Source of the DNA: a virus
Virus record (IMG/VR): IMGVR_UViG_3300044675_006066
Span: 1 to 48,848 of that record
Direction: 5' to 3' (one strand)
Length of the DNA stretch: 48,848 nucleotides
Part shown: positions 11,018 to 35,211 of the stretch, one piece after another
Layout: each line of letters opens with the position of its first letter
Position numbering within the stretch: the first letter of the stretch is position 1
Position numbers and translations under genes: made by a program
The notes under the pieces: model-generated
What the model was told of the DNA's origin: nothing
The model's database searches: none
The model's input: only the letters and a program-made list of their open reading frames with translations

Positions 11018-11848
11018 CTATCCTTCAGGATTAACTTTCTTGCCTTTATCATCAACATACACGACTGAAGGTATATAATTACCCTGTTCGTCTAGTACGT
11101 TTCCGTCTTTATCAGTTCGCTGACCCTCATCATTGATGTACTGTCCTAAGTTGTTGATTCTGCGGCCTTCTAGGTCAACCGTTTCGCCCTTTTCATTAAC
11201 TAGGGAGAGATCGTCGTTAACGAAATGGTACTGTTTTAGGAACTTATTTTCCGGTAGGTTGGCTTCGAAGTCCTTGTCGATAGAATACATCATTTGAGCT
11301 AGGGCGGTAGCTGCCGCAAAGGCAATCTCACTATCCGACTGCTCCGTGTACTCATCTATGGAATTATACACTTTATTGCCATTTTCATAGAATGCACAAT
11401 TGGCAACTAAAAACTCAAATCTGGCGTTGTCAGAAATAGCTTCTGCTGTATTCTGCTCTAGTGCCATTTTTTCGGCAATTAGTTCTCTTAATTCATTGCG
11501 TTTTTTGCGCATATCAATGGCTATATTTTTAGCCTCAGAAGCCTTAACCTTGGCATTCTTACTATCGCCAACGTATAGCTTCTTTTCTAGGGCGATTATG
11601 TCGGCACTAATCTTGTCTTGCTCTACATCCTTGCCCTTGTCCCAAATCCCCTGCTCTTTCATGAACTTGGATAGTTCCTTCTTTGTCATAATGCCATCTC
11701 TAACACAATCTGTCCAAGCCTTGGCCGAAACTCTCTGGGCTTGCGACATTACTGCGCTTTGTGGCCTCTTAACAACAATCTTGACTGTCTTTTCGCCTTC
11801 GCCGTCTTTGACCTTAACTTCAACAACTTTATCCTTTTCCTTTGACAT
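11018..11848 (-). CDS. Tail assembly chaperone-like protein (paralogue of 12216-13253)
   Basis: 276 residues, acidic and helical. Residues about 40-155 align by eye with residues about 30-150 of the 345-aa product two genes upstream: both share an A-x-AV/CVxDGxMT followed by L/MSxxMKEQxxW, a run of heptad-like helix, an I-R-x-x-R/E segment, and a Thr-Glu near the end. Residues about 205-276 instead hold short Gly-rich repeats of the type D-x-x-G-x-x-I-x-x-x-G-x-Y/R. Position immediately before the tape measure gene is that of tail assembly chaperones, which bind the tape measure protein before tube polymerisation. No slippery heptamer was found near its end, so the usual frameshift product is not evident. 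Shine-Dalgarno GGAGA precedes the ATG. Confidence 0.55.
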   Translation of the reverse strand: MSKEKDKVVEVKVKDGEGEKTVKIVVKRPQSAVMSQAQRVSAKAWTDCVRDGIMTKKELSKFMKEQGIWDKGKDVEQDKISADIIALEKKLYVGDSKNAKVKASEAKNIAIDMRKKRNELRELIAEKMALEQNTAEAISDNARFEFLVANCAFYENGNKVYNSIDEYTEQSDSEIAFAAATALAQMMYSIDKDFEANLPENKFLKQYHFVNDDLSLVNEKGETVDLEGRRINNLGQYINDEGQRTDKDGNVLDEQGNYIPSVVYVDDKGKKVNPEG

Positions 11849-12215: not shown

Positions 12216-13253
12216 TTACTTTGATTTAGCTTGCTTTGCGGCCATTTCCATCTTTTGCGTATGTATTTTCATTTTTTCATCGACAAATTCTTCCTGTCCC
12301 ACAGTTCCTTTAGATTCTATAATTTTGTTACGTTGATTGATAATAGATTTTGCTTTTTCGCTATTAAGATTTTGTATGTTTTTGGCCTTGTCTGTATTCT
12401 GAGCCATTATGAATACTTCTGAAGATCCCTTGATCTTTGCATTCTTGGTAGAATTCTCAAAATCCTTTTCTAGTTTTTCCTTTTCTCGTTTCCTATTTTG
12501 AACTATAAACCATCCATCTAACATATCATCGTCTTCTATGACTTCTTTACTTGGGCAGTCTAGTGACTCTTGTATGTTGTCATACATTTGCGACCAAACT
12601 ATTAAGTTTTTTTGATTGTGATTAAGCTCCGTAAGTCCTGCGTTTGCAAATAATTGTAGTTGAGATTTTTCTCTAATAATCCAAAGCGATTTCCAAGGTT
12701 CATTTCGCGCCAAATCTCTACATTTACTATCTGGAAGAAAAGATAGATACCATTGTTCAATAACTGTTTGTAAAGATGTGTCAGAAAAGTCATAAAGCTG
12801 ATTATTTTTAAATGTGAGATTTTGTATGAGCCAAGATGTTTTTTCTGTGGAAGCAAATCCTTCGCAAGTATTTTGATAGTTATAGTTTTTTTGTAATAAC
12901 TGTTCTGAAAGAATATCTTCAGTTTCTCTAATAGAAGATCTAATTCTTTTGGCTAGCTTTGCGTCTTGTCTAGCTTCATAGATATCTACTTTAAGATTTT
13001 CAACTTTCTTTTTGATTTCCTCTAACTTATTTTCGTGAAAACTTGTCCAAAGATACTGCTCTTTCATCCAAGAAGACATATCATCTTCTGTCATTAATCC
13101 ATCATTAACTGCCTGCTCATATGCTTCATTGTATTTTTGACAAGAATGTACTAATTGGTCAATTGTTGGAGAGTGTACAACTAAACCTTCTTGTAAAAAT
13201 ATCTTTCCAGATCTTATTGTTGAAATAAAAAACTCCCGCTCATGCTGTTTCAT
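12216..13253 (-). CDS. Tail assembly chaperone-like protein, larger paralogue
   Basis: 345 residues. The N-terminal half matches the 276-aa product at 11018-11848 (shared DGLMTEDDMSSWMKEQYLW-type motif near residues 52-70, then an IRSSIRETEDILSEQL helix and a TCEG near 126), so the two arose by duplication. The C-terminal third is Lys/Glu/Asn-rich and probably coiled or disordered. It is the first gene after the tail tube. The start is unusual: the GAGG Shine-Dalgarno and the ATG both lie in the loop of a terminator-like hairpin whose 3' arm is codons 5-8, so transcription and translation of this gene are probably throttled relative to the tail tube. The chaperone role rests on position and paralogy. 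Confidence 0.5.
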   Translation of the reverse strand: MKQHEREFFISTIRSGKIFLQEGLVVHSPTIDQLVHSCQKYNEAYEQAVNDGLMTEDDMSSWMKEQYLWTSFHENKLEEIKKKVENLKVDIYEARQDAKLAKRIRSSIRETEDILSEQLLQKNYNYQNTCEGFASTEKTSWLIQNLTFKNNQLYDFSDTSLQTVIEQWYLSFLPDSKCRDLARNEPWKSLWIIREKSQLQLFANAGLTELNHNQKNLIVWSQMYDNIQESLDCPSKEVIEDDDMLDGWFIVQNRKREKEKLEKDFENSTKNAKIKGSSEVFIMAQNTDKAKNIQNLNSEKAKSIINQRNKIIESKGTVGQEEFVDEKMKIHTQKMEMAAKQAKSK

Positions 13254-13279
13254 TACAAAACCTCATTGCGGGAGTCTTT
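13228..13279 (-). terminator. Terminator-like hairpin enclosing the next gene's RBS and start
   Basis: On the minus strand AAAGACTCCCGC (13279-13268) pairs with GCGGGAGTTTTT (13239-13228): twelve pairs including one G-U, with an 8-bp perfect GC-rich core (13268-13275 with 13232-13239). The 28-nt loop holds the GAGG ribosome binding site and the ATG at 13253. The 3' arm runs straight into a TTTTTTATTT tract. This is the geometry of an intrinsic terminator or attenuator placed after the abundant tail tube gene and across the start of the chaperone-like gene. Confidence 0.6.
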
Positions 13280-13325
13280 ATTTTTGTTTCCTTTTGAGTC
13301 CTAGAGCTTTATAGATTATTAATTA

Positions 13326-14297
13326 TCAAGGAGCAGGAGCATATGTTACATTGAATGTATTATATGTTGAATAGCTATATTGAACGGTGGCATTTCCACC
13401 GCTAGCATCGCCTCCACCATATGTTACAGACTTAAGAAAGCACTTATTACCAAGATCTACAGTATAAGCGCCAGCCGTCACAGAGATTGTCTGATCTCTA
13501 ATTGGAAGCTCGTCTGTGTCTTCATCAAACCCAGTGCCTGTTTCCAAAGTGTTTTCATCAACTAAGTATTCTATTTCTGCTGTAACTTCTACTGGGTAAT
13601 TTGGAATACGAGCATATGGGGCTTTTTGTCCAAGCTCTAATAAGTCTTCTCTGCCTAAGTCTATGCTAATATTCACAGATTGAACCTTGTCGCCTCCCTG
13701 TGGAAGATTTAGACCTGTAACGTCTTTTCTGGTTAATACGTTGCCACCAAGTGGTTCGTCAGTTGTGGATGTGTCATTATCAGAAATGTCGGCAGGAATG
13801 TTTAGAGTATCATTATTCCATGCCTTATGGTTGCCAGCTAGAGTGACTGACTCTGTAAGATTACCATCTACTGGAAACTGATAAGAAACACTGTTAACAT
13901 ACATACCAGTACAGTATACTGTCTGTAGTGGCGCTGACACACCGGCGTTTTCTGTATCTTTATAGATAGCAAACTTTAGACATACTCTTTTTTTGCTGTC
14001 TATTAGCAAATCTTGATCTGATCCAACTAAAGAATATACTGTTGGATGATTGTCTAATACTTTTTCTAAAGTAACTTCAATTTGTGGAATTTGAAGAACA
14101 CTATCATAAATCTCTAACTGACCTAATTCGAAAACGTTTTCAAACTCAAAGTTTGTATTTAGCCCAACAGATTGGACACCATGAAGGAATTGATAATCAC
14201 CAGCAGCGGGAGCAGCGTATTCGCCGGTAATTGCGTCTGGTAATTGAACAGCTATAGCTACCGCTTGACAAGCATAAAATGTACGATCATTTGCCAT
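13326..14297 (-). CDS. Major tail tube protein
   Basis: 323 residues. The N-terminus (RTFYACQAVAIAV), the FELGQLEIYD segment near 58-67 and the VYCTGMYVNSVSYQFPVDGN segment near 127-146 followed by ESVTLAGNHKAW are features I recognise from tail tube proteins of long-tailed phages. The product forms the hexameric rings lining the tail and is one of the most abundant virion proteins. An AGGAG Shine-Dalgarno precedes the ATG; a GTGTATAA motif lies 39 nt upstream of the start; a terminator-like hairpin follows the stop. It is thus a near-monocistronic, independently controlled unit, as expected for a high-copy protein. No sheath gene accompanies it, which argues for a siphovirus rather than a myovirus. 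Confidence 0.8.
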   Translation of the reverse strand: MANDRTFYACQAVAIAVQLPDAITGEYAAPAAGDYQFLHGVQSVGLNTNFEFENVFELGQLEIYDSVLQIPQIEVTLEKVLDNHPTVYSLVGSDQDLLIDSKKRVCLKFAIYKDTENAGVSAPLQTVYCTGMYVNSVSYQFPVDGNLTESVTLAGNHKAWNNDTLNIPADISDNDTSTTDEPLGGNVLTRKDVTGLNLPQGGDKVQSVNISIDLGREDLLELGQKAPYARIPNYPVEVTAEIEYLVDENTLETGTGFDEDTDELPIRDQTISVTAGAYTVDLGNKCFLKSVTYGGGDASGGNATVQYSYSTYNTFNVTYAPAP

Positions 14298-34085: not shown

Positions 34086-34129
34086 ATTTGTCTCCTGAAA
34101 AATGAGTCCTGAACTTACAATCTATTGGT

Positions 34130-34137
34130 ATATACAC
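34130..34137 (-). promoter_or_regulatory. Late-promoter-like octamer variant after capsid terminator
   Basis: Minus-strand GTGTATAT followed by ACCAAT. Differs from the other copies in the last base. It begins directly after the T-tract of the capsid terminator and lies 45 nt before the ATG at 34085. Confidence 0.4.
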
Positions 34138-34138
34138 G

Positions 34139-34171
34139 AAAAAGCCACCCCCAAGTAAACGAGGGTGGCTT
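34139..34171 (-). terminator. Intrinsic terminator after the major capsid gene
   Basis: Minus-strand AAGCCACCC (34171-34163) and GGGTGGCTT (34150-34142) form a 9-bp perfect stem with a 12-nt loop, followed by TTTTT. It lies about 33 nt past the capsid stop. A perfect 16-nt palindrome GCTTAATCGATTAAGC (34168-34183) overlaps its 5' arm. Confidence 0.85.
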
Positions 34172-34203: not shown

Positions 34204-35211
34204 TTAGAATGAGCCTAGGATCACTCTGCGGTTGTCTAGAACACCAAAGCCAAGCTCTGCAAAGCCGTAGTAACCGGCGCGCTGCTGACGATGAAGAGTG
34301 GGGTCTTCAAACACCTGTAGCTGCTCCTTAACTGGCATAACAAAACTGTCTCTTGTGGAGAGGTCAAGACCAACGACGAGTTCAAGGTCGCTAGCTTGCA
34401 CTGTACCACCAAGTTCGTTCACGAAGAACGACTGATATTCTTGACCTTCGCCTAGTTCATCTAGGTCACGTAGATTCACACCGAAGATACGTGTGATTGG
34501 AGCGCCGCCTGTTGCAGCGGTATAGATCTCACGACGAGTTGTTTCGTCAACTTGATCAAAACCCCAGTTACGAATATCTTCTAGAGCTTCTGGTGACACG
34601 TAGATGTCTGTTAGACGGCCACGGCCAAGTGAAGCGGAGTTACCACCACTATTACGACGCATGACAGTTTGCATTAGCGAAACTAGTCTCTTGCTGAATA
34701 GACCGGCAGTTGCATCACCGTCATAGACGAGGATATTGCGGTCAACGCCAGCGGCGAGAAGAGTGTGCCAACCGTCATCGTTCATCTTCTTGGTAAAACC
34801 AGCTTCCATCACCTGCATTGCGCGAGCAACGATATCCCATCTGGCTTCGCGGGCATAGCGAAGAAGATAGTCAACCGATGAAGCGATTGAGTAGGTGGGG
34901 ATCATCACGTAGTCGCCTTCCACACTTCGCTCTGGAATTCTACCGTGGCCGGGGTTGGTGTAAGCGACATGCTCACCTTCAAGGCCGGGAGAAACTAGGT
35001 CGAGTGGGAATTCGGTTGTTGAACCGGCTTCCACGTTGATGGTTTCGAAAATGTCACCAAGAATGTTACCAACTAGAACGCCCTTACGAAGAGGAAGCTC
35101 TAGAGCCTTGGCAAACTCACGTTGAGCAGCCGCAGCTACATTGATATCAGCATCCCCTGACTTGCGTAGGAGACTGATAAATTCGTCACTAGGTCTTTTG
35201 TTTTCTGGCAT
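34204..35211 (-). CDS. Major capsid protein (HK97-fold)
   Basis: 335 residues. Position after protease/scaffold and decoration genes, length and content identify it: an N-terminal helix (ADINVAAAAQREFAKAL), VGNILGDIFETINVEAG and LDLVSPGLEGEHVAYTNPG in the E-loop/N-arm zone, a long spine-type helix (VDYLLRYAREARWDIVARAMQVMEAGF), and a C-terminal P/A-domain ending GFAELGFGVLDNRRVILGSF. Third codon positions are visibly richer in G/C than in neighbouring genes, as expected for translation selection on the most abundant virion protein. Strong AAGGAG Shine-Dalgarno; an intrinsic terminator follows. A cleavage site for the phage protease cannot be fixed by eye. Confidence 0.88.
   Translation of the reverse strand: MPENKRPSDEFISLLRKSGDADINVAAAAQREFAKALELPLRKGVLVGNILGDIFETINVEAGSTTEFPLDLVSPGLEGEHVAYTNPGHGRIPERSVEGDYVMIPTYSIASSVDYLLRYAREARWDIVARAMQVMEAGFTKKMNDDGWHTLLAAGVDRNILVYDGDATAGLFSKRLVSLMQTVMRRNSGGNSASLGRGRLTDIYVSPEALEDIRNWGFDQVDETTRREIYTAATGGAPITRIFGVNLRDLDELGEGQEYQSFFVNELGGTVQASDLELVVGLDLSTRDSFVMPVKEQLQVFEDPTLHRQQRAGYYGFAELGFGVLDNRRVILGSF

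Follow-up and report, generated by a model that had tools for sequence, protein, structure and literature searches.

In phage T7 the partial terminator T-phi lowers the genes that come after an abundant structural gene, and in the MS2 replicase operator a hairpin encloses the start codon of the gene that follows an abundant virion gene. The gpG/gpG-T frameshift, a third kind of control, fixes the proportion of two chaperone forms to each other, not that of tube to chaperone. In attenuators such as pyrBI, a leader open reading frame (ORF) runs into a terminator hairpin, and a ribosome that follows close behind the polymerase prevents termination (PMC4824070). Neighbouring genes can also be coupled by RNA unfolding or by reinitiation, as is the case for f1 gene VII-IX, MS2 coat-lysis and the uPPE2-PPE2 pair of M. 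tuberculosis (PMC12548453, PMC11260477, PMC6728339), and in f1 and MS2 the coupling involves hairpins (PMC12548453).

The element described here shares features with each of the hairpin systems. It lies behind the tail tube gene of an uncultured virus (IMG/VR virus record IMGVR_UViG_3300044675_006066, positions 1 to 48,848; this whole stretch of 48,848 nucleotides is called the window below). From comparison with related phages, translating ribosomes probably decide whether the gene after the tube gene is expressed.

The hairpin and its gene neighbourhood

By gene content the virus is a long-tailed phage, with a large terminase, a major head protein and a tape measure protein of 3037 aa; no sheath protein is listed in PHROGs scans of the window. 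GTDB genomes were searched for a provirus or a host lead, and none was found. The features at the junction are the following, all on the minus strand, with the kind of evidence in brackets.

12216-13253, minus strand: 345-aa gene, between the tube and tape measure genes (ORF, homologues)
13223-13232, minus strand: T-tract TTTTTTATTT (T-tract percentile in relatives)
13228-13239, minus strand: 3' arm GCGGGAGTTTTT, codons 5-9 of the 345-aa gene (folding, codon bias)
13228-13279, minus strand: whole hairpin (sequence, folding)
13240-13281, minus strand: leader position, with ATA in place of ATG, 13 open codons and a TGA stop at +11 of the main start (sequence)
13247-13261, minus strand: inner stem GTTTT/GAAAC; the start codon lies partly in its loop, partly next to it (folding, covariation)
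13251-13253, minus strand: start codon ATG of the 345-aa gene (N-terminus aligns with homologues that have no hairpin)
13261-13264, minus strand: Shine-Dalgarno (SD) for the 345-aa gene, GAGG, enclosed by the hairpin (sequence; GAG or AGG kept in relatives)
13268-13279, minus strand: 5' arm AAAGACTCCCGC, untranslated (folding, covariation)
13289-13293, minus strand: leader SD AAGGA, still present in the window (conserved before the leader ATG in relatives)
13326-14297, minus strand: predicted tail tube gene, 323 aa, directly upstream of the hairpin (fold match, synteny in relatives)

A preliminary description of this DNA had reported that a hairpin encloses the 345-aa gene's start codon and ribosome binding site; the stem, loop and T-tract are all found as it said. 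The stem has 12 pairs, one of them G-U. Its 3' arm is indeed coding, and covers codons 5-9 rather than codons 5-8. The loop of 28 nt does hold the GAGG and the ATG, but it is not open: the inner stem and a 3-bp AUG/CAU stem form inside it, and in the sense fold the start codon is found at the loop tip while the SD is partly paired. That the hairpin goes far beyond chance is confirmed, with z = -5.2 for the surrounding 91 nt and none of 200 shuffles folding as well (the plus strand of this near-palindrome was folded), and the sense-strand core has an energy of -23.3 kcal/mol. A covariance model of the element has one match in the 48.8-kb window, besides its own antisense and one sub-threshold match. 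In Rfam no family scores above its gathering threshold, the best being BSnc120 with 23.9 bits against a threshold of 114.

As in an intrinsic terminator, the stem is G+C-rich and the T-tract follows directly. The loop, however, is not the short one of about 3-10 nt that such terminators have; with its 28 nt and inner stems it is long for a terminator, which counts against termination. This is also why a standard terminator scan, which considers loops of 3-8 nt, does not list the hairpin.

The gene upstream had been called a tail tube gene, and this is borne out by structure prediction: an AlphaFold model built from 24 relatives (mean pLDDT 70) matches the tail tube proteins of T5, P74-26 and SH-Ab15497 with Foldseek E-values of 4e-8 to 3e-4. 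By its predicted fold the 323-aa protein is a siphophage tail tube protein. The 345-aa gene had been described as chaperone-like. Family and fold searches with its protein gave no known family and no known fold; its position between tube and tape measure fits a tail assembly chaperone, and the label is a guess from that position alone. The further proposal, that the hairpin acts instead of the usual frameshift control, is unsupported, because gpG/gpG-T concerns two forms of the chaperone and because the gene that follows has a start of its own, whose frame varies. A programmed frameshift at the end of the 345-aa gene was also considered and rejected, as there is no constant frame or overlap with the next ORF. 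Just before the tape measure gene lies a 276-aa gene (11018-11848), apparently a paralogue of the 345-aa gene, with 27% identity over about 133 residues. Elsewhere in the window, an ordinary terminator hairpin (AGCCACCC...GGGTGGCTTTTT) is found at 34129-34170 on the minus strand, behind the predicted major head gene (34204-35211), and terminator-like hairpins thus end both predicted high-abundance structural genes, tube and major head.

Conservation and covariation in related phages

Relatives were collected by IMG/VR searches, which yielded 35 loci in a first round and the best 80 of 192 relatives in a later one, and by a further IMG/VR query centred on distant members (best 80 of 277). Comparison of these loci brings out the structure, its covariation, the T-tract and the leader frame. 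In related uncultured siphophages the enclosing hairpin is present at 63 distinct junctions, one of which (L121) has a weak form. In a quick tree of the rest of the 345-aa protein, the hairpin carriers fall into one deep group with 99% support, L121 excepted; two long-branched loci inside this clade, L119 and L123, are without the hairpin. The covariance model matches L086 and L121, and none of 53 other, mostly distant loci. Five loci from a pattern scan of IMG/VR (L043, L044, L062, L063 and L065) turned out to be unrelated chance matches.

The coding arm is constrained as RNA. Codon 6 is CGG in 60 of the 63 junctions, a codon that makes up 1.8% of Arg codons in these genes, and codon 7 is GAG in 59 of 63, compared to 29% of Glu codons. 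Given this codon bias, and homologues that do not have the motif, we reject the idea that conservation of the 3' arm comes from a constraint on the peptide. Compensatory changes that reach into the coding arm had been proposed as a check, and they are found: double-sided changes occur in 12 of 19 pairs in a 54-sequence alignment, and the covariation score of 0.224 is reached by none of 500 shuffles (mean 0.153), while slid registers give at most 0.112. As examples, the arms read CTCTCGC/GCGAGAG in L105, AATCCCGC/GCGGGATT in L084, ATTCCCGC/GCGGGAAT in L103 and AATCCCTC/GAGGGATT in L023. Counting independent changes on the tree, six pairs summed give about 11 changes in the compensating direction and about 0.1 in the opposite one, with no single pair significant. 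Covariation of the stem, coding arm included, is in this way supported by the alignment.

The outer stem has 37 G-U pairs but 4 A-C mismatches, and in 59 of 62 sequences the sense strand folds more stably than the antisense strand, so the functional form is the sense-strand RNA. A palindrome acting at the DNA level, as a protein site, is ruled out by the same asymmetry and by the T-tract being on one side only. A true start codon downstream of the hairpin is unlikely too: the N-terminal length matches that of hairpin-free homologues, and the SD and an ATG or GTG are kept (GTG in L021 and L099).

Scored against the reading frame of its own gene, the T-tract directly behind the stem exceeds the 90th percentile in 61 of 62 sequences, with a mean percentile of 0.99; it is poorer (TATTTTGTA) in many Tyr-Phe members. 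Sister clades without the enclosing hairpin have ordinary hairpins of unrelated sequence at the junction between tube and next gene, many of them with T-runs, for example GGGGCTTCGGCCCC followed by TTTTTT in L030. The only other strong stem with a T-tract on the minus strand of the window is directly behind the major head gene. The distance from the tube stop codon to the stem is 34-160 nt (59 sequences), which exceeds the limit known from E. coli, where a terminator at a distance of >27 nt is no longer repressed by a ribosome that has stopped upstream of it (PMC4824070). Terminators that lie no more than 100 bp into a coding region also work in E. coli (PMC4824070). Taken together, T-tract, sister-clade terminators, head-gene terminator, tube-stop distance and the E. 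coli precedents make partial termination at the T-tract likely.

The leader frame

Of 62 sequences, 54 have a short leader ORF of 1-17 codons, of the form AAGGA...ATG, that begins shortly before the 5' arm, so that a leader lies ahead of the candidate terminator and overlaps it, as in an attenuator; the window, with ATA for ATG, is not among them. This feature is absent from the preliminary description, and it points to gating by a leader ribosome. The leader ATG follows the AGGA by 4-11 nt, and the core of the 5' arm comes 2-16 nt after it. Most leaders (47 of 54) pass through the 5' arm and the buried SD and end at or just past the main start: relative to it, 26 stop at +11, 1 at +8, 10 at +1, 9 at -2 and 1 at -3. 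One further leader ends at -5, which brings those with a stop at a position expected for coupling (-3 to +11, or -5) to 48 of 54, the window itself being an exception since it has no leader ATG. Six leaders end before or within the main SD and so would not read the whole element. In 19 sequences stop and start overlap as ATGA, TAATG or TGATG. One of the six early-ending leaders, that of L002 (2974-2979), is ATG TAA, a start followed by an immediate stop, behind an intact SD.

Only 4 leaders share the frame of the main gene (p 1.5e-5 with relatedness ignored), and all four close before it. The other two frames from the leader start point mostly meet stops earlier. On the tree the leader frame has changed at least 16 times and the peptide varies between sisters; no conserved regulatory codons or peptide were found in it. 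From these changes of frame, it seems to be the act of translating the leader, rather than its peptide, that matters; what is conserved is that the element is read through. To some extent the +1 and +11 stops follow from the conserved letters ATGA and xATGA themselves, and the strongest arguments for the leader are for this reason the kept SD-ATG and the open frame.

In the subgroup of the window (with L001, L003, L011, L017, L019, L020 and L077) the leader SD is kept and ATA or ATT stands at the leader start (13279-13281 in the window). AUA or AUU as a true start was considered, as it stands at SD spacing in 8 of 8, and was not retained because the frames it would open are inconsistent. The leader ATG is treated as lost in this subgroup, with a near-cognate start as a possibility. 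As the leader ATG is gone, a simpler control is evident there from the sequences, with a putative terminator and a partly buried start codon.

Proposed mechanism, alternatives and known systems

Partial termination after the tube gene combined with a buried start codon is the best reading of the sequences, and one well supported by comparison. It is also the part of the preliminary interpretation that stands, through the covariation, the T-tract in 61 of 62 sequences, the predicted tube fold of the gene in front and the sister-clade terminators; the replacement of frameshifting is unsupported, and the chaperone identity is a guess from gene position. We favour, with reasonable confidence, a cis-acting sense-RNA element that would be a partial terminator and a sequestered start in one, gated in most relatives by a leader ribosome. 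Termination, gating and product ratio, as we infer them, would work as follows. When no ribosome is on the leader, the hairpin would form and some tube transcripts would end at the T-tract, and in transcripts that read through without a leader ribosome, the SD and AUG of the 345-aa gene would stay buried. A ribosome on the leader would occupy the 5' arm and unfold the hairpin, so that the polymerase could pass and the SD and AUG would be exposed; leader ribosomes may even be handed to the 345-aa gene by termination-reinitiation. The net effect would be much tube and less of the 345-aa protein and of the genes behind it, with the same ribosome opening both read-through and initiation. A more far-reaching version, which we hold tentatively and with slightly less than even confidence, is that of a one-piece switch: a dedicated leader would control terminator read-through and next-gene initiation together, 3' arm and T-tract would lie in the first codons (so that the RNA dictates His-Glu-Arg-Glu-Phe/Tyr), and the whole would be conserved across a deep phage clade and set the ratio of tube to downstream tail gene.

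The leader architecture would be explained by an element that acts on translation only, with the hairpin hiding the 345-aa start, a leader ribosome opening it and little or no termination. Such an element would also fit a stem that is more conserved than the T-tract, which is weak in L098 and L112. It is nevertheless unlikely, given that the T-tract is at or above the 97th percentile in nearly all sequences, that sister clades have ordinary terminators at the same junction, and that the sole comparable structure on the window's minus strand sits behind the major head gene. Those ordinary hairpins, as well as the window subgroup with no leader ATG, are on the other hand what one would expect of a plain partial terminator or a 3'-end stabiliser of the tube mRNA, with a fortuitous overlap with the next start and an inconsequential leader. 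We consider this quite improbable, as 54 of 62 sequences keep the leader SD and ATG, the frame staying mostly open over the whole element despite at least 16 changes of frame, and as the SD and inner stem lie within the conserved structure. Finally, the layout is as in MS2, an abundant virion gene and then a hairpin enclosing the next start, and a virion protein could bind this hairpin to repress the 345-aa gene late in infection; yet the apical loops differ in size and sequence, and such unpaired letters as are conserved belong to the SD, the AUG or the Glu codon, which makes an operator of this type highly improbable.

If the gated terminator with its sequestered start is correct, it would be a compact answer to the need of phages for many tube subunits but few assembly or tape-measure proteins, and it would tie read-through to translation. 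It is also a case where RNA structure dictates how a protein begins, in many diverged genes, with CGG nearly fixed at codon 6. The covariance model and the leader layout could serve to search other viromes for the element.

In the literature searched, with most subscription journals outside its scope, no equivalent is described that unites attenuator and coupling at a junction of phage structural genes and has coding sequence as its 3' arm. Like the E. coli pyrBI and trp-type attenuators, the element has a leader ORF running into a terminator-like hairpin. Unlike in these, the phage hairpin also holds the SD and start of the gene it would control, its 3' arm consists of coding sequence, neither an antiterminator nor conserved control codons are seen here, and the site is between phage structural genes. 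With f1, MS2 and uPPE2-PPE2 it shares an upstream ORF (translated in those systems) that stops at or near the next start, and a hairpin over the next initiation site; the difference is that the phage leader is a dedicated mini-ORF without a conserved product, and that the hairpin ends in a T-tract. Compared to the MS2 replicase operator, it has a T-tract and a leader and is without conserved operator-type loop letters. T7 T-phi is likewise placed behind a major structural gene but, unlike the phage element, does not enclose the next start. The element extends known designs of attenuators and of translational coupling, and their combination appears to be new.
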